DNA of 64,000 nt from Vineibacter terrae (lineage in GTDB: Bacteria; Pseudomonadota; Alphaproteobacteria; Reyranellales; Reyranellaceae). This document shows positions 4,416-42,249 of the stretch, one piece after another. Under the pieces are notes generated by a model. It saw nothing but the letters and a program-made list of their open reading frames with translations. It was not told the origin of the DNA and searched no databases. Position 1 is the stretch's first letter, and every line of letters starts with the position of its first letter. The translations under genes and the position numbers were made by a program. Location of the stretch: the NCBI RefSeq assembly GCF_008039615.1, contig NZ_VDUZ01000017.1, positions 1-64,000 on the forward strand, read 5' to 3'.

Positions 4416-5501
4416 TCAATAGCCTTGCGCAAGCAAGGCCGTGACCTCCCCCAGGAACATCTCGCGGCCGCGATCGGGGCGGTCGAGATGGACGTGGTGC
4501 GTTGCGCCAGGAATGGTCCTGACCCGCACGGCCGCCGCCCGCGCGAGATGCCGCGCCAAGGTATCGGCATCCTCCGGCCGGCTCCAGAAATCGCGCTCCG
4601 AGCGCAGCACCAGGACGCGGGCCGCGATCGAGGCGGCGTCGAAGAGCTGCCGCCCCGTCGCCTGGTAGAAGCTATCCTCCATGGCGCCGCTGGGCGCGCG
4701 AAAGCTGGCCGGGTGTCGCGACGCCGAGGTGGGGTCGCTGGCCAAGGCGGCCTGCACATAGGCCTCGGCGACACGCGGATCGCGCCACTGCGACTTGTCT
4801 TCCATCGGAATCACCGAATCCCATGCCCGCAGCAGGTCGGGGCCGGTGCTCAGCCGCCAGGCGCCGGCGCCGCCCAGGTTGAACCGGCCGGGCTGCGCCG
4901 GGTCCTCGTTGGCCGTGCCGCTGCCCAGCATGCGGTGCTGGGAAGAGCCGCCATAAAGCCCGTTGTAGTAGACGAGGTGGCTGACCCGATCGGGGTTGAG
5001 GGCAGCGTACATGCCACACCACATCGCTCCCGTCGCCCAGCCCAGCAGGCCAACGGCAGCAGTCCCGTCGCGGCGGGTCGCGGCGGCCACCACCGCATCG
5101 ATGTCGCGCATCACGGCCCAGGCGCGCACCAGCTGGGCATGGTCCCCGGCCGGCGCTTCCATGGCCGCCGGCCGGGTCGAGCGGCCGTAGCCGCGCGCAT
5201 CCATGACATGGACAGGATGACCCCGCTGCGCCAGATCAGCAGCCAGGGAACCGCCGGGCACCGGCAGATCGAAGGAGCCGATGCCCGGCACGCGCGCGCC
5301 ATGGACCAGGATGACCGGCACGCGCTGCGGCGCCCCAAGCGGCCGCAACATGCGCACGGCAATGTCATAGCCATCGCTTGTCCTCACGGAAAACTCTTCG
5401 CGCATCGCATTCTCCGCATGGCCGAGGGACGGCAAGGCGCCGGCCACCAGCACTGAGGCGGCGGCGCCCGTGAAGCAGCGGCGAGAGACCGGGCGTTGCA
5501 T
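4416..5501 (-). CDS. Alpha/beta hydrolase-fold protein with Tat-like signal and no serine nucleophile
   Basis: 361 residues beginning MQRPVSRRCFTGAAAS, a twin-arginine-like SRRxF motif followed by a hydrophobic stretch and a possible cut near AEN, so the product is probably exported folded. The start follows GAGGAGG. Fold markers are VPVILVHGAR (oxyanion strand), DARGYGRS, and late acid and His candidates in RSERDFWSRPED and GATHHVH. The nucleophile elbow reads GLLGWATGAM: the residue that should be Ser in G-x-S-x-G is Ala156 (GCG codon). It may be non-catalytic or may use another residue. It is followed by an SDR and preceded by a LysR gene on the same strand. Confidence 0.8.
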   Translation of the reverse strand: MQRPVSRRCFTGAAASVLVAGALPSLGHAENAMREEFSVRTSDGYDIAVRMLRPLGAPQRVPVILVHGARVPGIGSFDLPVPGGSLAADLAQRGHPVHVMDARGYGRSTRPAAMEAPAGDHAQLVRAWAVMRDIDAVVAAATRRDGTAAVGLLGWATGAMWCGMYAALNPDRVSHLVYYNGLYGGSSQHRMLGSGTANEDPAQPGRFNLGGAGAWRLSTGPDLLRAWDSVIPMEDKSQWRDPRVAEAYVQAALASDPTSASRHPASFRAPSGAMEDSFYQATGRQLFDAASIAARVLVLRSERDFWSRPEDADTLARHLARAAAVRVRTIPGATHHVHLDRPDRGREMFLGEVTALLAQGY

Positions 5502-5581
5502 CGCGTGGATCCTCCTCACCGCGTTGGATTGCATTGTCGGCGGAGGAGGCAAGGCCGTGAAATATATCTTTATGGCCTTCG

Positions 5582-5600
5582 TGATATGCACCACATATCA
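5582..5600. promoter_or_regulatory. Palindrome upstream of the alpha/beta hydrolase gene
   Basis: TGATATG-CACCA-CATATCA has 7-base arms around a 5-base centre. It overlaps the stop codon of the LysR gene and lies about 80 bases upstream of the hydrolase start, in an AT-rich stretch. It could be an operator for the adjacent LysR protein; this is inference from symmetry and position. Confidence 0.35.
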
Positions 5601-6503
5601 GTCATCCGGCTTCATCCGCCGGACCGCGTCGAGGAAGCGGTCGCGCGTTGGTGACGCCCGCCGCGCGTCCCAGGCCATGATCAGATCCAGGTGCAGCATG
5701 TCGTCGGGCGCGCTGACCTTGATCGGCCGGAAGACCACGCCGCGGCGCCTCACCGCTGCGACCGACGCGGGCACCAGAGCGGCGCCGAAGCCAGCTGCCA
5801 CCAGACCCACGACGGTCTGCATCTGGCGGGCCTGCTGCGCTACCACCGGCGAGAAGCCGGCGAGGCGGCACAGGCCGAGGATCTGGTCATGGAAACCGGG
5901 TCCCTTCTCGCGCGGCGTCACCACGAAGCCTGTCGTCGCCAACGCCGCGAGCGGCACCGACGGCCGGCGCGCCAGGGCATGCCGCTGCGGCAAGGCCACG
6001 CGTATCGGCTCGCGCGCCACAAGCTCGATCGCCAGATGCGGCACCACGATGCCCGGGCGGCGCATGAACCCGACATCAGCGGCGCCGCCGACAATGGCCT
6101 CGACCTGCTCCGATGTCGTGCCTTCCTGAAGCCGCAACTCGACACCCGGAAAGGCAGCTCGAAAACGCCGCAGGATGGCCGGCAGGCGATCGGCGACCGA
6201 CATGTCGAGGAAGGTCACGGTGATCTGCCCCGCGAGGCCGGCCGCGACGCGTCTGGTATGCTCGATCCCGTCGGACAGCGTGGCCTGGGTGCGACGGGCC
6301 ACGTCCAGCAGCGCCGCACCGGCCGGCGTCAGTGACACATGGCGCTGGTTGCGGACGAACAGCGCCGTGCCCAGGGCCGCCTCCAGCCTGCGGATGGCCT
6401 GGCTGAGCGGCGGCTGGGCCATGTGCAGCCGCTCGGCGGCGCGATGGAAGTGCAGCTCCTCGGCCACAGCGACAAATTGCTGCAACAGGCGAAGATCGAT
6501 CAC
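5598..6503 (-). CDS. LysR-family transcriptional regulator
   Basis: 301 residues. The N-terminal winged helix is MIDLRLLQQFVAVAEELHFHRAAERLHMAQPPLS (shown here in part: residues 1-34), with the usual second half QAIRRLEAALGTALFVRN, followed by a two-lobed effector domain from about residue 90. The GTG start is supported by GGAGGAGGG; upstream extension would run into a repeat element. It lies upstream of, and co-oriented with, the alpha/beta hydrolase gene and is divergent from AMP nucleosidase. The effector is unknown. Confidence 0.9.
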   Translation of the reverse strand: MIDLRLLQQFVAVAEELHFHRAAERLHMAQPPLSQAIRRLEAALGTALFVRNQRHVSLTPAGAALLDVARRTQATLSDGIEHTRRVAAGLAGQITVTFLDMSVADRLPAILRRFRAAFPGVELRLQEGTTSEQVEAIVGGAADVGFMRRPGIVVPHLAIELVAREPIRVALPQRHALARRPSVPLAALATTGFVVTPREKGPGFHDQILGLCRLAGFSPVVAQQARQMQTVVGLVAAGFGAALVPASVAAVRRRGVVFRPIKVSAPDDMLHLDLIMAWDARRASPTRDRFLDAVRRMKPDD

Positions 6504-6530
6504 GCGCCCTCCTCCACAGACGCCGGGGCT

Positions 6531-6670
6531 ATCGCATATGGTGCAACACCGCGCTGCCACCTCTGCGTCATCCCGAGCGCAGCGAGGGATCTCCCGCGAA
6601 TGGCGTACCGTGCGCCTTGCCGCAGGAGATCCCTCGCTGCGCTCGGGATGACAGCCGGGCGACATGCGAT
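6531..6670. repeat. MITE/REP-like inverted-repeat element, copy 1
   Basis: About 140 bp bounded by ATCGCATAT (6531-6539) and ACATGCGAT (6662-6670). Inside are long complementary arms, CATCCCGAGCGCAGCGAGGG and CCCTCGCTGCGCTCGGGATG, around a core with a small inner hairpin. No coding content. It lies in the divergent region between the LysR gene and AMP nucleosidase, so it may affect their promoters. Confidence 0.7.
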
Positions 6671-6726
6671 GGCCCTGCACCTTGCCCCCAAAAAACGAAC
6701 GACGCGTTGCGATGCCGAGCCGATCG

Positions 6727-8247
6727 ATGATAGCTGTATCGCAAAGCACGGAACGCCACTTGACCGATCCTATTCCCTTGCTGCAGCCCGCGCCGCCGTT
6801 GACGTTCCAGGCGTTTGACGATGTCGCCGCGGCCGTGCAGCGGCTGACCGAGATCTACGAACGCAACACGCTTTTCATCCGCGAGCATTTCGAGCACATG
6901 CTGAAGGGCAATGTGCCGCGCAGCCGGGTGCGCGCCTGCTATCCCGCGATCCGCATCACCACGACCTCGTTCGACATCATCGATTCGCGGCTGGCCTACG
7001 GCTACGTCCCTGGCCCCGGGACCTACCAGACCACCATCTCCCGGCCGGAGCTGTTCGTCGCCTACCTCAACGAGCAGGTCGGGCTGCTGATGCGCAACCA
7101 TCGCATCTCGGTCGAGATCGGCGAATCCGACGTGCCGATCCCGCTGCATTTCGCGTTCCACGAGGGCAGCTACCTCGAAGGCACGATGCCCGAGGCGCTG
7201 CCACGCCCGCTGCGGGATGTGTTCGACGTCCCCGACCTTGCCATCACCGACGACGCGATCGTCAACGGCACCTGGACGCCGAGTCACGGCGATCCCCTGC
7301 CTCTGGCGCCCTTCACGGCGCCGCGCGTCGATTTCTCGCTGCATCGGCTGCTGCACTACACCGGCACGCGGCCCGAGCATTTCCAGAACTTCGTGCTGTT
7401 CACCAACTACCAGTTCTATGTCGACGAGTTCGCGGCCCGCGCGCGCGCCTTGATGGCGGCCGGCACGGAGGACTACACGGCCTATATCGAGCCCGGCAAC
7501 ATCGTGACCCGGCGCGGCGCCGCCAGCCCCGATCCGGCCGAGCCCAACCAACGCCAGCCGCAGATGCCGGCCTTTCACCTGGTGCGGCCAGACCATTCGG
7601 GCATCACCCTGATCAATATCGGGGTCGGGCCTTCGAACGCCAAGACCATCACCGACCATATCGCGGTGCTGCGCCCGCACGCCTGGCTGATGCTCGGCCA
7701 TTGCGCCGGACTGCGCACCTCCCAGAAGCTGGGTGACTATGTGCTGGCCCACGGCTATGTGCGCGAGGACCACGTGCTGGATGCCGACCTGCCGACCTGG
7801 GTGCCGGTGCCGCCGCTGGCCGAGGTGCAGGTAGCGCTGGAGGACGCCGTCGAGGAGGTCACCGGCCTGTCCGGCTGGGAGCTCAAGAAGATCATGCGCA
7901 CCGGCACGGTGGCCACGATCGACAACCGGAACTGGGAGCTGCGCGACCACAGCGAGCCGGTGCGCCGCTTCTCGCAATCGCGCGCCATCGCGCTGGACAT
8001 GGAGTCGGCCACCATCGCCGCCAACGGCTTCCGCTTCCGCGTCCCCTACGGCACGCTGCTGTGCGTTTCCGACAAGCCGCTGCACGGCGAGTTGAAGCTG
8101 CCGGGCATGGCGACCGCCTTCTATCGCCGTCAGGTGCATCAGCACCTGGAGATCGGCATCCGCGCCCTGGAAAAGCTGCGCGCCATGCCGCTCGAACGCC
8201 TGCATTCCCGCAAGCTGCGCAGCTTCCTGGAGACGGCGTTCCAGTAG
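6727..8247 (+). CDS. amn: AMP nucleosidase
   Basis: About 506 residues; hydrolyses AMP to adenine and ribose 5-phosphate. The sequence has an N-terminal AMN regulatory domain (YERNTLFIREHFEHMLKG, YVPGPGTYQTTISRPELF) and a C-terminal nucleoside-phosphorylase-like catalytic domain (LINIGVGPSNAKTITDHIA, RPHAWLMLGHCAGLR, ALDMESATIAANGFRF). The MESAT/ANG region corresponds to the ribose-binding Met-Glu of the family. The start is uncertain: ATG at 6712 and 6727 and TTG at 6760 are all in frame and none has a strong ribosome-binding site. The preceding 60 bases belong to an inverted-repeat element, which argues against earlier starts. It has its own transcription unit, convergent with the following SDR gene. 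Confidence 0.92.
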   Translation: MIAVSQSTERHLTDPIPLLQPAPPLTFQAFDDVAAAVQRLTEIYERNTLFIREHFEHMLKGNVPRSRVRACYPAIRITTTSFDIIDSRLAYGYVPGPGTYQTTISRPELFVAYLNEQVGLLMRNHRISVEIGESDVPIPLHFAFHEGSYLEGTMPEALPRPLRDVFDVPDLAITDDAIVNGTWTPSHGDPLPLAPFTAPRVDFSLHRLLHYTGTRPEHFQNFVLFTNYQFYVDEFAARARALMAAGTEDYTAYIEPGNIVTRRGAASPDPAEPNQRQPQMPAFHLVRPDHSGITLINIGVGPSNAKTITDHIAVLRPHAWLMLGHCAGLRTSQKLGDYVLAHGYVREDHVLDADLPTWVPVPPLAEVQVALEDAVEEVTGLSGWELKKIMRTGTVATIDNRNWELRDHSEPVRRFSQSRAIALDMESATIAANGFRFRVPYGTLLCVSDKPLHGELKLPGMATAFYRRQVHQHLEIGIRALEKLRAMPLERLHSRKLRSFLETAFQ

Positions 8248-8434: not shown

Positions 8435-9406
8435 CTACCGTCCGACCCGCCACCCTACCTGGGCTGCGAGATCCTGGAAGAAATCTGCTTCGTAGGCTTG
8501 CTCCGGGGCCTGACGCACGAGCTCGTCGATCCGGTGCGCATCGTCGCCCACCAGGATGCGCCAGCGTTCGGCCTTGACCCCATCGAGGATGATCTTCGCG
8601 GCCGCCGCCGCCGTCGTCGGCGCCTCAGTCAGGAAGCGCTGCGCCCGCTCCGCGACATGGCGACGGATGTCGTCGTCCGACAGACCGGTGGTGTCGCGGC
8701 CCGCCAGGGCCATCTGGGCGCGTGCCTGCGCGACCTGCCGCTCGCCCAGCGCGCCCGACTCGCTGCCGCTGTGCATCTTGCTGGAATTGGCGGCGATCGA
8801 CGTGCCGATATGTCCCGGCATCACGACCGAGCATTTGATGTGCGGCGCATTGAGCCGCAGATCGGTCATCAGCGCCTCGGTGAAGCCCTTGACCGCGAAC
8901 TCCGCGGCGCAATAGGCGGTATGCGGCACATGCGGCCCCACCGACGCCCAGAAGCCGTTGACGCTGCTGGTGTTGACGATGTGGCCCTTGTCGGCGTTGC
9001 GCAGCATCGGCAGGAAGGCACGCGTGCCGTAGTAGACCCCGCCCCAGCAGATGTTGAACGTGCGCTCCCACTCATCGCGCGTGTTGAGGATCATGCTGCC
9101 GCCGCCGCCGATCCCGGCATTGTTGAACAGCAGGTGGACCTTGTCGGTCTCATGCGCCGCAGCGACCTCTTCGCGGAAGCGCAGGATCTGCGCCTCATCC
9201 GACACATCGGCGATGTGCGTCGTCATGCGCAGCCCCTGCGGCAGCCCGTCGGCTTCGCACAGGCGGCGTGTCTCCGCCATTGCTGCAGCGGAGACATCGC
9301 ACATGGCAACGTGACACCCTTCGGCGACGAGCTGGCGCGCAAGCTCGCGCCCCATGCCGGTGCCGCCACCCGTGATGACCGCGATCCTGCCCGCAAGATC
9401 CTTCAT
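8435..9406 (-). CDS. SDR-family protein with altered active site (YxxxE)
   Basis: 323 residues from an ATG preceded by GGAG at 9-base distance. Cofactor motif TGGGTGMG is at residues 12-19, NNAG at 95-98 and the catalytic-Ser region NTSSVNG at 145-151. The active-site Tyr165 lies in TAYCAAEFAVKG, so the residue four after it, normally Lys, is Glu169 (GAG codon). Without the Lys that lowers the Tyr pKa, normal SDR catalysis is doubtful. The C-terminus is longer than in minimal SDRs, with a helical tail (APEQAYEADFFQDLAAQVGW). It stands alone, convergent with amn; function unassigned. Confidence 0.82.
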   Translation of the reverse strand: MKDLAGRIAVITGGGTGMGRELARQLVAEGCHVAMCDVSAAAMAETRRLCEADGLPQGLRMTTHIADVSDEAQILRFREEVAAAHETDKVHLLFNNAGIGGGGSMILNTRDEWERTFNICWGGVYYGTRAFLPMLRNADKGHIVNTSSVNGFWASVGPHVPHTAYCAAEFAVKGFTEALMTDLRLNAPHIKCSVVMPGHIGTSIAANSSKMHSGSESGALGERQVAQARAQMALAGRDTTGLSDDDIRRHVAERAQRFLTEAPTTAAAAAKIILDGVKAERWRILVGDDAHRIDELVRQAPEQAYEADFFQDLAAQVGWRVGR

Positions 9407-9518
9407 CGCCCGCGTCTCCATCGCCGATTGCTCGCGCAATAGTGTCGGCAGCGGAGTCGCGATTCAATATCGTACCTGCGCCCTCGTCCTCACAGGCGAA
9501 ACGCGCCTGTGGCCGCGC

Positions 9519-9923
9519 TCAGGACTTCTTGCGCACGATGTAGTCGGCGCTCCACGGGCCGCCGCCGGCACAGGCGAGGTAGAGGAAGACGAAGCAATAG
9601 AGTATCGCCAGCTCGCCCTGGTTCAGGATCGGGAAGAAGCCGCGCGGCGCGTGGGCCATGAAGTAGGCCACCGCCATCAGGCCCGACAGGACGAAGGCGA
9701 CCGGCCGCGTGAACAGCCCGATCACGATCAGCGCGCCGCCCACCAGCTCGAAGATGCCGGCGATGCCCGACGGCGAGAACATCTGAAGATTGTCCATGGC
9801 CGCGATACGGGGAAACTTCAGGTATTTCGCCGTCCCGTGCTGCAGGAACAGGAGTCCCGTCATGATGCGAAGGGCGCTCAGCGCGTGCGGCGTGAAGGCC
9901 GTGCGGATCGAATCCAGATTCAT
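9519..9923 (-). CDS. DoxX-family membrane protein
   Basis: 134 residues with four hydrophobic segments. It has the DoxX signature LRIMTGLLFLQHGTAKYLKFP near the N-terminus, then IAGIFELVGGALIVIGLFTRP and a third helix followed by YFMAHAPRGFFPILNQGELAILYCF. DoxX-like proteins are inner-membrane proteins; some are subunits of quinol oxidases or thiosulfate:quinone oxidoreductases, and others are linked to redox stress. It lies just downstream of a sulfite-oxidase-like gene on the same strand (34 bases apart), so a joint redox/sulfur role is possible but not shown. Confidence 0.88.
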   Translation of the reverse strand: MNLDSIRTAFTPHALSALRIMTGLLFLQHGTAKYLKFPRIAAMDNLQMFSPSGIAGIFELVGGALIVIGLFTRPVAFVLSGLMAVAYFMAHAPRGFFPILNQGELAILYCFVFLYLACAGGGPWSADYIVRKKS

Positions 9924-27408: not shown

Positions 27409-27493
27409 TGGTGCGGCCGAGAAGACTCGAACTTCCACGGTGTTACCCGCTAGCACCTCAAGCTAGTGCGTCTACCAATTCCGCCACGGCCGC
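27409..27493 (-). tRNA. tRNA-Leu, anticodon GAG
   Basis: 85 nt class II tRNA. The acceptor stem GCGGCCG pairs with CGGCCGC, the CCA end is encoded, and the D-arm region is TGGCGGAATTGGTAGACGC. The anticodon stem is CTAGC/GCTAG with loop TTGAGGT (anticodon complement at 27457-27459), then a long variable arm and T-loop TTCGAGT. It reads CUC/CUU leucine codons. Its 3' end is the attachment point of the island to the left. Confidence 0.95.
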
Positions 27494-35277: not shown

Positions 35278-36810
35278 TCAGAGCGGGATGTTGCCGTGCT
35301 TGCGCCACGGATTCTCGAGCTTCTTGTTCTTCAGCAGCGCCAGCGCCTTGCAGACCCGCCGGCGCGTGCCGTGCGGCATGATCACGTCGTCGATGAAGCC
35401 GCGGTTGGCGGCCACGAACGGGTTGGCGAACTTCTCACGGTATTCCTTCTCGCGGGCCGCGATCTTGGCGGGATCGCCGATGTCGGACCGGAAGATGATC
35501 TCGACCGCCCCCTTGGCGCCCATCACGGCAATCTCGGCGCCGGGCCAGGCGTAGTTGACGTCGCCGCGCAAGTGCTTGGACGCCATGACGTCATAGGCGC
35601 CGCCATAGGCCTTGCGGGTGATCACCGTGACCTTGGGCACCGTCGCTTCGGCATAGGCATAGAGCAGCTTGGCGCCATGCTTGATGATGCCGCCGAACTC
35701 CTGGGCCGTGCCCGGCAGGAAGCCCGGGACATCGACGAAGGTGACGATCGGAATGTTGAACGCGTCGCAGAAGCGCACGAAGCGCGCCGCCTTCTTCGAT
35801 GAATCGATGTCGAGGCAGCCGGCCAGGACCATCGGCTGGTTGGCGACGAAGCCCACCGTGTCGCCGGCCATGCGGCCGAACCCGGTCACGATGTTGCCGG
35901 CATAGTCGGGCTGCAGCTCGAAGAAATCGCCTTCATCGACAATTTTAGCAATCAACTCTTTGATATCATAAGGCTTATTCGGATTGGCCGGAACCAGGGT
36001 ATCAAGTGAGAAATCGTCCCGCGCCGGGTCATCGGCCGTTGGCCAATGCGGCACCTTCTCGCGATTGCTGAGCGGCAGGAAGTCGTAGAAGCGACGCAGT
36101 TGAAGCAATGCCTCAACATCATTCTCGAAGGCCACGTCCGCCACACCCGACTTGGTGGTGTGGGTGACGGCGCCGCCAAGCTCCTCCTGCGTCACCGTCT
36201 CATGCGTCACCGTCTTCACGACATCGGGACCGGTGACAAACATGTAGGAGCTGTCCTTCACCATGAAGATGAAGTCGGTCATGGCCGGCGAGTAGACCGC
36301 CCCGCCGGCGCAGGGGCCCATGATCATCGAGATCTGCGGAATGACGCCGGAGCTCATCACGTTACGCTGAAAGACATCGGCATAACCCGCGAGACTATCG
36401 ACACCTTCCTGGATTCGTGCACCGCCCGAATCATTGATGCCGATCACCGGCAAGCCATTCTTCATGGCCGTGTCCATCACCTTGCAGATCTTCTGCGCAT
36501 GAGCGTCGGACAGCGCGCCGCCGAACACCGTGAAATCCTGGCTGAAGACCATCACCGGGCGGCCATTGATGGTGCCGTGGCCCGTGATCACGCCGTCGCC
36601 CGGGATACGCTGCGCCTCCATGCCGAAATCAGTGCAATCGTGCTCGACGAACATATCGAACTCCTCGAAGGAGCCCTCGTCGAGCAGAACCTCCAGCCGC
36701 TCACGTGCCGTCAGCTTGCCCTTGGCATGCTGCGCATCGATACGGCGCTCACCGCCACCCAGTCGCGCCGCGGCGCGCTTCTTCTCCAGGAGCTGGAGGA
36801 TTTCCTGCAT
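35278..36810 (-). CDS. pccB: Propionyl-CoA carboxylase beta subunit (carboxyltransferase)
   Basis: 510 residues, the PccB length. The protein has the acyl-CoA carboxyltransferase N- and C-domains: [61 protein letters not shown] (in part), then [28 protein letters not shown] and [19 protein letters not shown]. The start follows GGGGAAA. First gene of the pccB-ptrB-pccA run. The stretch encoding about [18 protein letters not shown] (35940-35990) uses AT-ending codons (AAA, ATT, TTG, TAT, GAT) unlike the rest of the gene. Confidence 0.94.
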
Positions 36811-37610
36811 CGTGTTTCCCCGAACGGATCGGCCAAACGGCGGTTGCCCATAGCACTTGGGCCGGTGGGTTGCTAGGTGATCAGGCCGCAGAGTGAAACA
36901 ATCTTGCGCAGGCAAATCTCTTCGGCAGAAGGATCGCGATCACATCGCGGCAGAATTACCAGAAACTCTATCGAGCTGTGATTTCAAGGGCTTGCGGATG
37001 GTCAAAATTACGCCGGAAAACGGCCAGAAATTACCAGAAACCCTCGCCGCCCGTGCAGCAACCGCATCGCGCGATGTCCGCACCCGAGTCGGTGCAAATG
37101 GTGAGAGCAAGAACGACATCATGAACTCCGCACCCAAGAATTGGGCCAGTAGACAATACCACTTTCTTAATTGAAGAACAAGAACAAAATAGCAACATAA
37201 ATGACGAATGAGCTGGCCGGTGCAGCAGATGATCTGTCCGGTGCAAAACGACGTCGCGTTTGTTGACGCGCCGGAGCTGCCCCAGGGCCAGGGACGTTCA
37301 AGCTTCCCGATGAGGTAAGCCGAACCGGAGCAACCAGGCTGGCTGGAGGCAGCGGAACCGTTGGCGTGAGCGAGCGGACGTTCCGGCGCTGGTTCGGCGC
37401 TTGGAAGAGACAGAGGACGCAGGACTCTTGGATCGCGATTGGGCCGACGATCGGACCAACGGATGCCACCGCACCCGGCACCGGCCCACTTCGTGCACGC
37501 CAAAGCCGCGCCCACGAGTACTCTGGTGCATTGGACGCTGGCCAGCTCGCGCCCCATTTCCGCCACACGAGCTACAGCACACCGCAGTATCCGCTTCCTC
37601 TCACTCCCCC
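36811..37610. other. 800 bases without an intact gene at the left edge of the ietAS insert
   Basis: Neither strand offers a convincing complete gene. There is a near-repeat GAATTACCAGAAACTC (about 36952) / GAAATTACCAGAAACCCTC (about 37025), an AT-rich patch around 37155-37205, and a frame-disrupted transposase-like segment at about 37340-37450. Base composition is clearly less GC-rich than the pcc genes. It looks like decayed mobile DNA. Confidence 0.5.
37330..37455 (+). pseudogene. Decayed transposase N-terminus (helix-turn-helix fragment)
   Basis: Read across frames, the plus strand gives a Glu-Ala-Ala-Glu stretch, then GVSERTFRRW (37363-37392), and after a frame change RLEETEDAGLLDRDWAD (from 37398). 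Together this matches the recognition helix region of ISNCY/IS481-type transposases (…LSERTFRRWxRRYEEEGEAGLLDRRLG-like). At least two frame changes are needed and the catalytic part is not recognisable, so it is a relic. Confidence 0.5.
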
Positions 37611-40154
37611 TCATCCGATTAGCACGTCGATTTCCTTCACCTCGACGAGGTTGGCGATTTCCGAATAAAGATCCACGGCTTGACCAGCCGCTGAGATCGA
37701 GATGACCAGCGAATAGCGCGCCTTGTCGGACACCCGCCGCTGGCCCGCATGTGATTTCCACCAGCCACCTACAGGATAGATCGCAATTGAATCGTGGCCG
37801 GCAAGCTCAATTGCACGCCCACGCCACAAATCGCAGTGCAGCGAGCCGGCTTGAACAGCCTTGGGCCCCAGCAGCCAGCAGCTCGTTTCCCCATCCGGCT
37901 CGGAACCGTCCTTTGCCTGGCTGGCAGAGATGCGGCTTCTGAACCGAGCCTTTGTTTCGGTCCGCTTTTTCATATCGAAGCGAAGCCCAAAAGACCGGTA
38001 GGTATCGGGTCGAGTTGCGGCCTTGCCGGTGACGTTTGGCTCGATGAAGTAGGAGAGCGTCACCTTCATGACGACGATCTCGTTCTCGATCTGCTCCAGC
38101 GCTGTCCTCGGCCAAGGCAGATCGTAGAAGTGCATCTCGTTGAATACGCCAGTCCGCCCGTCTGCCCCGACCGCGAAAGGCTGAATTTCGGCTTCGGCGA
38201 TCAGCGTGACGTCATTTCGCGCGGAAAGGACGGCCCGCCCGATGTCGGGCACACCGTAACCGACTTCGCGCAGCATCTGCTGCTTCTCGACCTTCGACCC
38301 ACCCTTCCAGTGGGCGCCGCGGCCGATGAACTGGTTGCGGATCGGTTGCGGCCACTGCGCCGAGTCGATTGTCAGCGCGCGGTGCGTCTCCGGCCAAAGG
38401 CCCGGCAAGGCGGCCTGCAAGGTGCCGATAAAGTTCCCGGCCATGCCTGCTGCCGCGCTTGTCGCCCAGAACGGCACCAGCGGTTCCGCCGCCACGTCCG
38501 ACCCAGGCGCCAAGAGCGAAACGGACGGACTCCAAGCGCAGAAGCCGGTGGTGTCAGAGAGCATATTTCCAGCTTCGAACAACACCTCCGGCTTAATTGG
38601 CGTCAGGTCATCAGGGAGCGACTGCGATCCGCGGCTGAAGGGGCTGCGGTGGTTTGCAGGGACAACCGCCTCCAGGGCCGGCGACGGTGCAGGCGGCTGT
38701 TCCTTCCGGGTGAAGCCGCCGATTGTCAGGGTGTTCCAGCTCTGCGCAGGATCCTCGAGCGGCTGGGACGGCACAACGTTCACCATCATCCCGCCCGACA
38801 CGTTGCCGGTTGCTGCCATCACCAAGCGCTTCGGTCGCTCCGACGCCGACACACCATCGACCATGTCCCCCGGCATCGATCCTGCCGCGATCTGATCGAG
38901 CGCCCCGCTCCAGCTCGACGGCCGGTCCGATGGAAAATCGGTCGCGGTGGTGGCGATACAAAAGCTGCGCCGTACGTCTGGCCGTTCCGTTTCAACCGAG
39001 GCGACCGCCCCTTGGGTGACCACACCGTAGCTCGGTGGCTTCGTAGGGGGAAAGCCGTCTGGCGGAAGGAGCTTCATCGACTCGACTGCGTGGGTAAGAG
39101 CCACTGGCCGCGTGTCGTTCATGAGCGGCTCCAGATCGCCGTAGAGCACGAGGCCGGCCAGAGCCGTTCCGTGTCCCCCCTCGGGATGATGATCGTCAGG
39201 CCCCCAGTCTGCATCATAGGCCCAAACGCCGCGCAGACCCGGCGAGATCAGTGGGTGAGCGGCGTTGACGCCGGTATCCAAGGCACACACCGCTGACGCG
39301 TCCTGAGCCGGCGGCGTCACGCGCGCCGCCAGCTCCGCGACCCAATCGTGCTGACCTAGCCTATTTTCGCCGCGTTCAAGGAATGGCTCGATCGTGCCCG
39401 TCGCCCGTCTGATCTCTGTAATCGCGCCCGGAGAACGCCCCGCAAAAGCGGCGACCGCGCTGGCTGAGGCATGAACGAACAAGACCGTCGTGTCCGGGAA
39501 GATGAGCCGATCTGAGTGGACGTCAAGGTTGGTGCTGCGCGCCAACGCTGCGAGCCGACCAGCAAGCACCACCGGCTGCCGCACCCAAAGCTCCCACCAC
39601 ATGATGTCGGTGGCAGCGAGATCGACGGTACCGGTGAAAAGGGAACTGACCTGAGTCGCGAGCACGGTCTCGACAACCTCGAACCGGTCGACGTACGGCC
39701 GACGCTGGTTGCCGGGATCGCGCCCATAGTCGGCAATCCTCTCCCGGAGATAATCGCGCGCGTCGTCAGGCACGAAGATCAGCGCGCTCTCCGAGCGATC
39801 ATCGTTTCGCTCGGACCGCAATACGACGACGTCCTGCGCGGGAAACTCCAACGCAGCCGGTACCTTCGTGGCCTTGACCCGCGAGCCTTCGGCCGGCGGC
39901 ATCGTCGTGACTTGGACGATCGCGCCCGGTTTGAGCCCCTCGATGGACAACCGCACATCTGCTTCCGGTACTGGAAGCTCTCCCAGCGCAACGGCAAGTT
40001 GATCAAGCAACGCCGCTGCATGCCCGGCATAGTCATCGCGAAGCGGCTTGCGCTTCTGGTTCCGGGCTGGAAAGGTGTAGGCTGCCGTCTCTCGGAAGTC
40101 GTCTATCGAGATGTGCGCGTTATTCCGCTCACCGTAATCTTGTGCCCCCGTCAT
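37611..40154 (-). CDS. ietS: IetS-like subtilisin (S8) serine protease of an IetAS system
   Basis: 847 residues, no signal peptide, so presumably cytoplasmic, unlike secreted subtilisins. About 285 N-terminal residues of unknown fold precede the S8 domain. The catalytic triad is visible: Asp293 (CALDTGVNAAHP), His328 (GGHGTALAG) and Ser566 (WATSAAAGMAG), with the oxyanion Asn451 in AATGN. A ~270-residue C-terminal region follows. It lies 53 bases downstream of an AAA-ATPase gene on the same strand. This gene pair and order match IetAS: an AAA-ATPase (antitoxin-like) and a subtilisin-like protease (toxic component) shown to stabilise Agrobacterium Ti plasmids, with homologues reported as anti-phage. 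The assignment rests on architecture, not on a search. Confidence 0.78.
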   Translation of the reverse strand: MTGAQDYGERNNAHISIDDFRETAAYTFPARNQKRKPLRDDYAGHAAALLDQLAVALGELPVPEADVRLSIEGLKPGAIVQVTTMPPAEGSRVKATKVPAALEFPAQDVVVLRSERNDDRSESALIFVPDDARDYLRERIADYGRDPGNQRRPYVDRFEVVETVLATQVSSLFTGTVDLAATDIMWWELWVRQPVVLAGRLAALARSTNLDVHSDRLIFPDTTVLFVHASASAVAAFAGRSPGAITEIRRATGTIEPFLERGENRLGQHDWVAELAARVTPPAQDASAVCALDTGVNAAHPLISPGLRGVWAYDADWGPDDHHPEGGHGTALAGLVLYGDLEPLMNDTRPVALTHAVESMKLLPPDGFPPTKPPSYGVVTQGAVASVETERPDVRRSFCIATTATDFPSDRPSSWSGALDQIAAGSMPGDMVDGVSASERPKRLVMAATGNVSGGMMVNVVPSQPLEDPAQSWNTLTIGGFTRKEQPPAPSPALEAVVPANHRSPFSRGSQSLPDDLTPIKPEVLFEAGNMLSDTTGFCAWSPSVSLLAPGSDVAAEPLVPFWATSAAAGMAGNFIGTLQAALPGLWPETHRALTIDSAQWPQPIRNQFIGRGAHWKGGSKVEKQQMLREVGYGVPDIGRAVLSARNDVTLIAEAEIQPFAVGADGRTGVFNEMHFYDLPWPRTALEQIENEIVVMKVTLSYFIEPNVTGKAATRPDTYRSFGLRFDMKKRTETKARFRSRISASQAKDGSEPDGETSCWLLGPKAVQAGSLHCDLWRGRAIELAGHDSIAIYPVGGWWKSHAGQRRVSDKARYSLVISISAAGQAVDLYSEIANLVEVKEIDVLIG

Positions 40155-40207
40155 AAGACCCTACGCGTATGTGAGATGTTCCATTGCGTCCGGCCAGCGG
40201 AGCCTCC

Positions 40208-41218
40208 CTAGCGACCGGACCGGCGGCGGAACTTCTGCTTGAGTGCTTGACGGTTTTGCAGAGCATCGCGCAGCGCCTCGGTCGACACCTTCGTCGCGCC
40301 TTCGAGGATTGCGTCCTTAATCACCGCGTCGGTTGCTCGCACCAACTCGCCCTGACTCAATCCTTCGAGCGCCCGGGCCAGATCCGGCGATAACTTCGAG
40401 ACAAGCTTGAGCTTGCCGAGGCGGCGTTCAATGATCGCTCGCGCAGCCGCAGCATCGGGCACTGCGTATTCGATCACCTCGTCGAAGCGCCGCGCCAGCG
40501 CGTCGTCGAGTATCTCCACATGGTTCGTTGCGGCCAGCACGAGGCTGTCGGTAGAGTTGGGCTCCTCCATAAAGGCGAGAACGGAATTGAGCACGCGCCG
40601 AATTTCGCCCACGTCGTTCGGTTCGCCCCGACGCGCGCCGATGGCGTCAAACTCGTCGAGCAGATAGACGCCCCGTATCTGGGCAATCTGATCGAACAGC
40701 AGCCGCAGCTTGCCCGCCGTCTCACCGAGGAACCGGCTGAACAAAGACTCCAGCCGCACGGTGAACAATGGAAGCCGCAACTCTCCGGCAAGCGCCGAAG
40801 CGGTCATTGTCTTGCCAGTGCCCGGCAGCCCGACGAGCAGCATGTGCGTCGTAGGGGTTTGTCCGTGTTCGCGCAGGAGCGCGCGTTCGTGCTGCTGACG
40901 GACGACACGGGTCAGTCGCGCACGAACGTCGTCCGCCAGGACCATGCTTGCCAGCGTGATCTTGGGATAAGCGCTCTCGACGAGACCCTGAAGGTCGCCT
41001 CGGGGCCGAGCCAATGGGATCGGCGCCTGCCCACCGGCGGGTCTGCCCATCCGCTGCCGATCGCGTGCCTTCTGGACGAGGCGTTTCAGCTTCTCCGCCT
41101 CCTCTGTGTGTCCTTGCCGGGCCTCTTGGGCAGCGACCTGGAGCGCAATGGAGAGAAACTGGTCCTCATCGCCCTCGACGTGCGAGTTCAGGAGCGCGAG
41201 AAGGTGCTTTGCCGACAT
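40208..41218 (-). CDS. ietA: IetA-like AAA-ATPase of an IetAS system
   Basis: 336 residues. A helical N-terminal part (about 1-85) resembles the region before the AAA core in ietA/ATPase-peptidase pairs. The AAA core follows: Walker A GLPGTGKT (130-137), a pore-loop-like SRFLGET (161-167), Walker B YLLDEFD (185-191), sensor-1 AATNH (229-233) and Arg finger RRF (243-245), then a C-terminal lid helix bundle. The start has a strong AAAGGAGG. Upstream is a very AT-rich promoter region. As the first gene of the pair, it presumably restrains or directs the protease encoded downstream; in the Ti-plasmid system the ATPase acts as the antitoxin. Confidence 0.8.
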   Translation of the reverse strand: MSAKHLLALLNSHVEGDEDQFLSIALQVAAQEARQGHTEEAEKLKRLVQKARDRQRMGRPAGGQAPIPLARPRGDLQGLVESAYPKITLASMVLADDVRARLTRVVRQQHERALLREHGQTPTTHMLLVGLPGTGKTMTASALAGELRLPLFTVRLESLFSRFLGETAGKLRLLFDQIAQIRGVYLLDEFDAIGARRGEPNDVGEIRRVLNSVLAFMEEPNSTDSLVLAATNHVEILDDALARRFDEVIEYAVPDAAAARAIIERRLGKLKLVSKLSPDLARALEGLSQGELVRATDAVIKDAILEGATKVSTEALRDALQNRQALKQKFRRRSGR

Positions 41219-41277
41219 GCTCGCCTCCTTTCTTAGCCGCGACGGTTGAACTTAGAAGGTGCATTGGAGCACAACTG

Positions 41278-41325
41278 CCATAAATATATATAATTCTTGA
41301 TCAAAGAACAACAACAATCCAGTGG
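41278..41325 (-). promoter_or_regulatory. Probable promoter region of ietA-ietS
   Basis: An AT-rich block containing TTATATATATTTA and, upstream on the minus strand, TTGTTGTTG and TTTGATCAAG. It is the most AT-rich patch for several kilobases and lies about 60-105 bases before the ietA start. Exact -35/-10 boxes are not certain. Confidence 0.4.
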
Positions 41326-41352
41326 CCGCCTAGCATGCCAGACTGGCGATAA

Positions 41353-42249
41353 TCAGCGGCCGCGGTAGATGCAGTCCCAGCTCTGGTTGCTGACGAAGCG
41401 GTCGAAGCCGGCGCGGGGACCGCGGAACACGCTGCGATCGACCAGCTCGCCGGCGATCTTGCCATGCGGGAAATCGGCGATGGGGCCATTGTCGCCACTG
41501 GTGTACTGCCACAGGTTCCAGTCCGGCCACGGCGAGCCGGCGACGCGTGGCAGGATCATGCCGCCACGCAGGGGATTGCCCATGGCGTCGGTGCTGACCT
41601 TGTAGTTGGCGACCCAGAGCGGATTACGCGCCAGCAGCGCCCATAGTCCCGGCGTGTTGGCGATCTCATCGCGCTGCTCGTGGATGAAGTTCTCATAGGC
41701 GTAGACGAGCACGCCGCGGCCGGTGCGCGCCATGGCCCGGCGCAAAAAGCGATCGACCTCGGCGGCGCGCATGTAGTGATCCGGATCGTTGCCGTGCGGC
41801 TCCCAGTCGATGGCAAGCACCACCCGGCGCTGCGATGGCGGCAGCAGATCACACGCCGCCTTCACGACACGCAGGAAGTCGTCGGCCTGGCGATCGCCGG
41901 TGTCGGTCGGTGTCGCCCAGTGATAGGCGCCCAGCCGAAGGCCGGCGCGCGCGATCTCCAGGGTTCGGTCCGGGAACACCGAATCGACATCGTTGGGGCT
42001 GCCCGTGTCGCGCCCCAACGTGGCGCGATGAATGACCAGCCCGATGCCGTGCCGGCTCTTCAGCGTATTGTCGATCGGGATAGTGTTGTGGCTGGACAGG
42101 TCGAGCACAACCGACGGGTAGTCCCGGGGAGATACCGTCTTGGCCGCGACCGGCCGTGCCGAAGGTGACGCCGCGACGGACCGCTGCTGCGCGCTTGCCG
42201 GCATCGCCGCCAGCGACGCGACGCACAGGGCCAGGACTCTACCAACCAC
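41353..42249 (-). CDS. Secreted GH25-family lysozyme (muramidase)
   Basis: 298 residues with a signal peptide (VLALCVASLAAMPASA). GH25 features are VVLDLSSHN at the first strand, HRATLGRDTG, the catalytic-acid strand VLAIDWEPHG (Asp/Glu pair), and the C-terminal WNLWQYTSGDNGPI. It should cleave the MurNAc-GlcNAc bond of peptidoglycan in the periplasm or outside. The start is GTG with GGGGGAG just upstream. It lies immediately right of the ietAS insert and downstream of the ATP12 gene. Confidence 0.85.
   Translation of the reverse strand: MVGRVLALCVASLAAMPASAQQRSVAASPSARPVAAKTVSPRDYPSVVLDLSSHNTIPIDNTLKSRHGIGLVIHRATLGRDTGSPNDVDSVFPDRTLEIARAGLRLGAYHWATPTDTGDRQADDFLRVVKAACDLLPPSQRRVVLAIDWEPHGNDPDHYMRAAEVDRFLRRAMARTGRGVLVYAYENFIHEQRDEIANTPGLWALLARNPLWVANYKVSTDAMGNPLRGGMILPRVAGSPWPDWNLWQYTSGDNGPIADFPHGKIAGELVDRSVFRGPRAGFDRFVSNQSWDCIYRGR

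Follow-up and report, generated by a model that had tools for sequence, protein, structure and literature searches.

Gene pair and encoded proteins

The DNA analysed here, called the window, is the 64,000 nt stretch at positions 1 to 64,000 of contig NZ_VDUZ01000017.1 of Vineibacter terrae (Alphaproteobacteria, Reyranellaceae). Its minus strand carries two adjacent genes, ietA and ietS, which code for an AAA-ATPase and a subtilase, respectively. The features of the locus and of the two proteins are as follows.

37611–40154, minus strand: ietS, subtilase of 847 amino acids (aa); Pfam, PADLOC, alignment and predicted structure
40155–40207, minus strand: intergenic stretch of 53 bases between ietA and ietS; ietS start matching the Shine-Dalgarno consensus in 3 bases only
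40208–41218, minus strand: ietA, AAA-ATPase of 336 aa; Pfam, PADLOC, alignment and predicted structure
41219–41238, minus strand: Shine-Dalgarno sequence of ietA, full AAAGGAGG, directly before the start codon; sequence
36860–41354, strand not applicable: segment absent from congeners, approximate extent; flank alignments
IetA domains: three N-terminal helices (3–56), disordered linker (57–69), then the AAA module; predicted structure
IetA motifs: Walker A 130–137; pore loop F163-L164-G165; Walker B D188-E189; N232; R243-R244
IetS domains: N-terminal region 1–285 (βαββαβ at 184–250); S8 domain at about 286–645; KP-43-like C-terminal part, by predicted fold, at about 646–820

A first-pass annotation of this DNA had placed an ATPase and a subtilase open reading frame at these positions, with ietA 53 bases upstream, and both are present on the minus strand. 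The Pfam matches and the conserved motifs argue that the frames are not due to chance.

IetA shows the Pfam AAA domain at residues 126–250 (E-value = 3.3e-28). The Walker A, Walker B, sensor and Arg finger motifs, described as intact in the first-pass annotation, are borne out by alignment: K136 (Walker A), D188-E189 (Walker B), N232 and R243-R244 are conserved in all 46 aligned IetA sequences. The pore loop is of the threading type and reads [F/Y]-[M/F/L]-G in 46 of 46. The structural model (predicted local distance difference test, pLDDT, 83.5; predicted template modelling score, pTM, 0.71) is of low confidence in the linker at positions 57–69. In a structural search the closest folds are PAN (Z = 24.3), FtsH (Z = 23.7) and Vps4 (Z = 23.1), where rows within about one Z unit count as ties and the whole-model search hardly probes the N-terminal helices. 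The models show IetA as a predicted PAN/FtsH/Vps4-like threading ATPase.

IetS displays a Pfam Peptidase_S8 domain at residues 287–634 (E-value = 1.3e-42). The catalytic triad Asp293/His328/Ser566 is complete, as had been noted earlier: D293 is found in 48 of 49 aligned sequences, and H328, S566 and the oxyanion residue N451 in 49 of 49 each. The sole exception is L040, with Glu at position 293. The N-terminus starts MTGAQDYGERNN and, judged by eye, carries no signal peptide.

Both ends of the protease had been called unrecognisable. For the C-terminal part the predicted fold refines this. The best structural match of the model (pLDDT 85.3, pTM 0.77) is KP-43 (1wmd; Z = 24.4, root mean square deviation (rmsd) 2.9, 16% identity); it covers the model range 286–820, with 371 residues aligned vs about 240 for plain subtilisins. 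The predicted fold has the KP-43-type arrangement of a catalytic domain followed by a C-terminal domain (barrel), and since the match reaches residue 820, a KP-43-like character is assigned to the C-terminal part. No sequence relative of this part was found in the PDB; the single IetS sequence likewise gives no relative there, and the IetS profile matches only the subtilisin catalytic core. Residues invariant even among distant IetS sequences in this part are P680-W681-P682, S701-Y702-F703, E705-P706 and W798-W799.

The N-terminal part remains unrecognised by sequence, yet its predicted topology is prodomain-like. Searches of the PDB and Pfam gave no trustworthy match, including for a prodomain; the PDB matches are weak (Cmr2, E-value = 0.0083; SCAP, E-value = 0.08) and those in Pfam are scattered single-member matches. 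Ahead of the catalytic domain, positions 184–250 show the predicted element order βαββαβ, which is the order of subtilisin prodomains, and this stretch may be prodomain-like. The top Foldseek target for the IetS model is a pro-form subtilase, but with an rmsd of 22.7, and whole-model fold searches hardly probe this part. E188, W190, E247 and R249 of the N-terminal region are invariant even among distant IetS sequences.

Family, descent and distribution of the pair

In the PADLOC profile search the best matches of the two proteins are IetA (E-value = 7.1e-68) and IetS (E-value = 6.7e-29). The pair shows what characterises an IetAS member: an upstream ATPase gene on the same strand with a short gap, homology of both proteins and intact motifs. 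Direct comparison with pTiC58 agrees. This plasmid carries an annotated ATP-binding protein/S8 peptidase pair (L164 874–1860 and 1864–4374), which by homology we take to be the ietA/ietS of Yamamoto et al. 2009. Identity to the window pair is 34% over 833 residues for IetS and 56% over 267 residues for IetA, and gene order, strand and two-protein make-up are common to both. The pTiC58 pair differs in being plasmid-borne, in its gap of 3 bases (53 in the window) and in the position of its IetA on the tree. The IetAS-like composition suggested by the first-pass annotation is thus supported, and its alternative, a best match to an unrelated housekeeping family, did not hold. Scores against the NCBIfam families are 191.6 bits for IteA (NF042959; cut-off 510) and 20.9 bits for IteS (NF042956; cut-off 900). 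By these sequence scores the window pair is outside the IteA/IteS equivalog groups; it sits on a branch of its own. It is well supported as a member of the IetAS family, a kind already known.

The same genome carries a second IetAS pair (G000:C7, L027 7782–11283, minus strand), with an IetS of 840 aa (P0003; PADLOC 898.6 bits) and an IetA of 357 aa (466.3 bits). Unlike the window pair, it belongs to another branch, and its protease is missed by a search with the window IetS (P0001); it lies close to a tyrosine-integrase match.

One IetS scan of genome contigs gave 42 loci, 37 of them with full-length IetS. All 37 have IetA as the next gene upstream, in the same orientation and separated by 47–60 bp in 35 of them and by 12 and 30 bp in the other two; the IetA of L038 is truncated by the contig start. 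The five remaining loci (L046, L064, L065, L068, L069) are fragmentary or truncated. In L046 (about 5400–8241) an IetS remnant still has the catalytic motifs, but ietA, the ietS start and roughly the first 100 residues are lost behind a frame that, by eye, resembles a serine recombinase. Thus no intact IetS without IetA was found among the 42 loci, the five broken or cut ones included, as would be expected if IetS by itself were harmful. Clustering of flanking open reading frames at the 42 loci and the window, with frames overlapping IetA/IetS set aside, revealed no third conserved partner gene, the next families being present in at most 5 loci.

The two genes descend in parallel. Distances on the IetA and IetS trees correlate with r = 0.95 for 37 pairs (permutation maximum 0.34) and r = 0.91 for the 19 close ones (maximum 0.63); these 19 IetS are split from viral-contig IetS by a branch of 0.92 with full support. 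Besides several alphaproteobacterial orders, the hosts include Cupriavidus, Lysobacter and an Alteromonadaceae bin. Most of the close IetS relatives come from Alphaproteobacteria, but the gene crosses between groups: identity reaches 96.7% between Sphingomonadales and Hyphomicrobiales, which argues for transfer.

Translation signals of the two genes are unequal, the full AAAGGAGG of ietA being strong vs the weak 3-base match of ietS. Among related pairs the longest Shine-Dalgarno match is longer for ietA in 29/30 and equal in 1/30; this count covers the 30 of 37 full-length pairs with placed ietA starts, near-copies included, and since the loci are related they are not independent events. By these sites, IetA is probably translated in excess over IetS.

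IetS is found in 4 of 101 relatives, V. terrae itself counted, and in none of the three congeners. Within the family, IetA (E-value threshold 1e-25) is present in 8 of 75 genomes, again with its own counted, and in no congener. A sample of the class gave matches in 7 of 385 genomes at 1e-30 (own counted), one other being in the close branch (72%). The sequence around the pair aligns to the congener G002 up to 36832 and again from 41372, and to the congener G003 up to 36859 and again from 41355. Between these flanks lie about 0.87 kb in G002, including a different reading frame that by eye looks phasin-like (L021, about 8750–9620), and about 0.2 kb in G003; in G001 the right flank alone is readable and no pair adjoins it. 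The flanking gene order is common to the congeners, in line with the chromosomal location given by the first-pass annotation, and conservation at this locus in all relatives, which would have spoken against that annotation, is not seen. Because G002 has a different frame there, genes may be gained and lost at the pccB/GH25 gap. Third-position GC is 73.5% for ietS and 75.1% for ietA, vs 81–91% in six neighbours. Judged from sequence distribution, the pair is accessory and horizontally spread across orders.

A comparison of 36781–37200 with 41181–41420 shows no repeat, direct or inverted, that is 9 bases or longer, and at gathering score Rfam gives no match in 36800–41500. Of the 10 tyrosine-integrase matches in the genome, none is on the contig of the pair. 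Downstream of ietS, about 0.7 kb (36916–37610) contain no recognised gene and have a GC content below that of the window; against 61 genomes this segment matches itself and three fragments of 30–41 bases (E-value about 4e-4) only, and it has no match in plasmids. The sole tRNA found in the window, tRNA-Leu (gag) at 27409–27493, has no link to the pair.

Some IetS relative is present on 452 plasmid records, 313 of them typed conjugative and 2 at 60–80% identity, and on 2 phage records. On pNS6002 conjugation genes are near the pair, on pCMU01 a Shedu-labelled gene adjoins it, and on pAtCFBP6624 a GASH-labelled set lies beside it. In L035 and L052, GajA and GajB (Gabija) are confirmed downstream, and clusters common to these neighbourhoods also occur in L036 and L065; a third GajB is among the scanned neighbours, with no locus assigned. 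A check of ten named neighbours gave candidate PDC-S39 in L034 and candidate PDC-S15 in L060, and four (L066, L044, L057, L067) gave no match at 1e-30. Type I restriction parts and candidate defence systems lie beside other relatives, and integrase-type domains are found in at least 4–5 of 136 neighbours among the families listed. For these scans 148 neighbours were drawn, with L046, L058, L059, L061, L064, L065, L068 and L069 set aside; further rows left out are those of L036 and L041 (near-copies) and two of L043 (IetA and IetS themselves). The scans cover 136 proteins and a reduced set of 97, drawn up without any row of L035 or L052 and without 29 further ones, and the figures come from the 25 commonest families listed. 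Drawn with no control set, the defence neighbours serve as illustration and not as a measure of enrichment.

Function and rival explanations

With a probability of about three in four, the pair would be an IetAS module in which a cytoplasmic subtilase toxin, IetS, is restrained by an AAA-ATPase antitoxin, IetA, for addiction and/or abortive phage defence. IetA would be made from the gene directly upstream, probably in excess. It would act as a hexamer that engages IetS with its threading pore and its N-terminal helices. ATP would be spent on holding or remodelling IetS, possibly at the prodomain-like N-terminal region of the protease, which would thereby be kept inactive. If IetA were lost, titrated or blocked, through loss of the locus or by a phage factor, IetS would be released and would cut cell proteins; growth would stop, which would leave the cell addicted to the locus and/or abort a phage infection. 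From the tested homologues we infer the toxicity of IetS and its neutralisation by IetA and, more freely, the IetA hexamer, the N-terminal grip, the trigger and the targets.

The toxin/antitoxin reading is favoured because anatomy, intact active sites, constant pairing, parallel descent (r = 0.95), horizontal spread and ribosome-site asymmetry are all observed on this branch, together with the PADLOC and pTiC58 homology, the accessory, mobile status, the threading-type IetA and the tested homologues. Two homologous pairs are reported to work as toxin-antitoxin modules in which the protease is the toxin (PMC5006074, PMC8562856), a description also given in PMC6755753 and PMC10954446. Of these pairs, sgiAT of Salmonella Genomic Island 1 (SGI1) resembles the window pair, by description only, in having an AAA-ATPase antitoxin and a subtilase toxin, and differs in being carried by an integrative mobilisable element (PMC5006074). 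Mycoplasma TA132/3, also compared by description only, is likewise a chromosomal AAA-ATPase/subtilisin-like protease pair, in a very distant host; neutralisation of the protease is reported to have been shown, and loss of the ATPase gene alone to be lethal (PMC8562856). ietAS is listed as a defence system with its mechanism undescribed as of 2023 (PMC9958689), and appears in a table of many systems escaped via changes in phage proteins, the protein for ietAS not being specified (PMC10286901). The NCBIfam IteA/IteS families are annotated anti-phage and their homology to the window pair is detectable. Defence by ietAS was originally reported by Gao et al. 2020.

Several points weigh against this reading. 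The IteS/IteA matches are far under the curated cut-offs, and the functional experiments come from other pairs, none on this branch; of the experimentally cited pairs, the sequence of pTiC58 alone was compared directly with the window. The prodomain reading rests on topology, with no backing from sequence searches. Neither a defence gene nor an integrase was detected beside the pair in the window, whose other genes were not scanned with PADLOC.

ATPase-protease partnerships are common housekeeping machines, and the pair could in principle be one that belongs to the lineage. This is very improbable, as IetS is present in so few relatives (4/101, 0/3 congeners, 7/385 genomes of the class) and the site is empty of the pair in congeners; barring an assembly artefact in the congeners, distribution and site rule it out. 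More plausible, though still improbable, is a two-part ATP-dependent protease in which IetA acts as an activator, handing to IetS the phage or host proteins that it has recognised and unfolded. The pore loop of the threading type is consistent with this, as are the nearest folds PAN, FtsH and Vps4, since PAN and FtsH are partners or parts of proteases. However, homologous proteases are reported to be toxic alone and neutralised by the ATPase (PMC5006074, PMC8562856), and in mycoplasma loss of the ATPase gene alone is reported to be lethal (PMC8562856); nor would a stoichiometric partner need an antitoxin-like ribosome-site asymmetry. A larger but still minor share goes to addiction only, whereby the pair retains a mobile element or locus and has no role in phage defence. 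Homologues are reported to stabilise SGI1 and Ti-type plasmids (PMC5006074 and cited titles), and the many plasmid records, 313 of 452 typed conjugative, point the same way. The window pair, however, is situated in a short chromosomal segment on a contig with no tyrosine-integrase match, defence genes lie beside some relatives, and NCBI labels the family anti-phage.

Viral IetA-only genes

IetA is also found in viral records, with 124 loci in all, of which 80 are covered here. A Peptidase_S8 search of 15 whole records gave matches in 4, i.e. the paired controls L080, L085 and L105 plus L131, and in 0 of the 11 others. At least eight records carry IetA with no detectable S8 peptidase (L084, L090, L096, L109, L110, L111, L112, L133); in each the record extends for 1.8 kb or more beyond the gene, although these records may still be fragmentary and the profile could miss a protease that has diverged strongly. 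L083, L088 and L097 were left outside this set, being near a record end or cut, and L091 and L092 repeat L090.

All eight proteins retain Walker motifs and Arg pair. The N-terminal domain is missing from L110 and L112 and the pore-loop aromatic from L111 and L133, which makes these four weaker as working antitoxins. RecT, terminase, DNA methyltransferase or DnaB genes adjoin IetA in 5 of the 8 records; in L109 the single neighbour scanned gave no match. On the IetA tree the IetA-only state requires at least 6 changes by parsimony, 3 of them forced by starred branches, with long branches leaving parts unsure. The seven viral IetA scanned (all but L112) and the window IetA have the same best match, phrog_3757, annotated "unknown function". 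In a literature search, none of the titles or abstract beginnings listed concerned phage-borne IetA, which is not proof of absence.

A phage with the antitoxin only is what counter-defence would look like, and the viral IetA-only genes could serve as such. Tentatively, IetA may be a threading antitoxin that restrains IetS via its prodomain-like N-terminal region, and phages may have repeatedly taken IetA alone (phrog_3757) as a counter-defence that keeps host IetS off during infection; this combined proposal is possible rather than likely.

The branch described here supplies confident models of both proteins, 37 full-length relatives and residues that are invariant even in distant IetS proteins.

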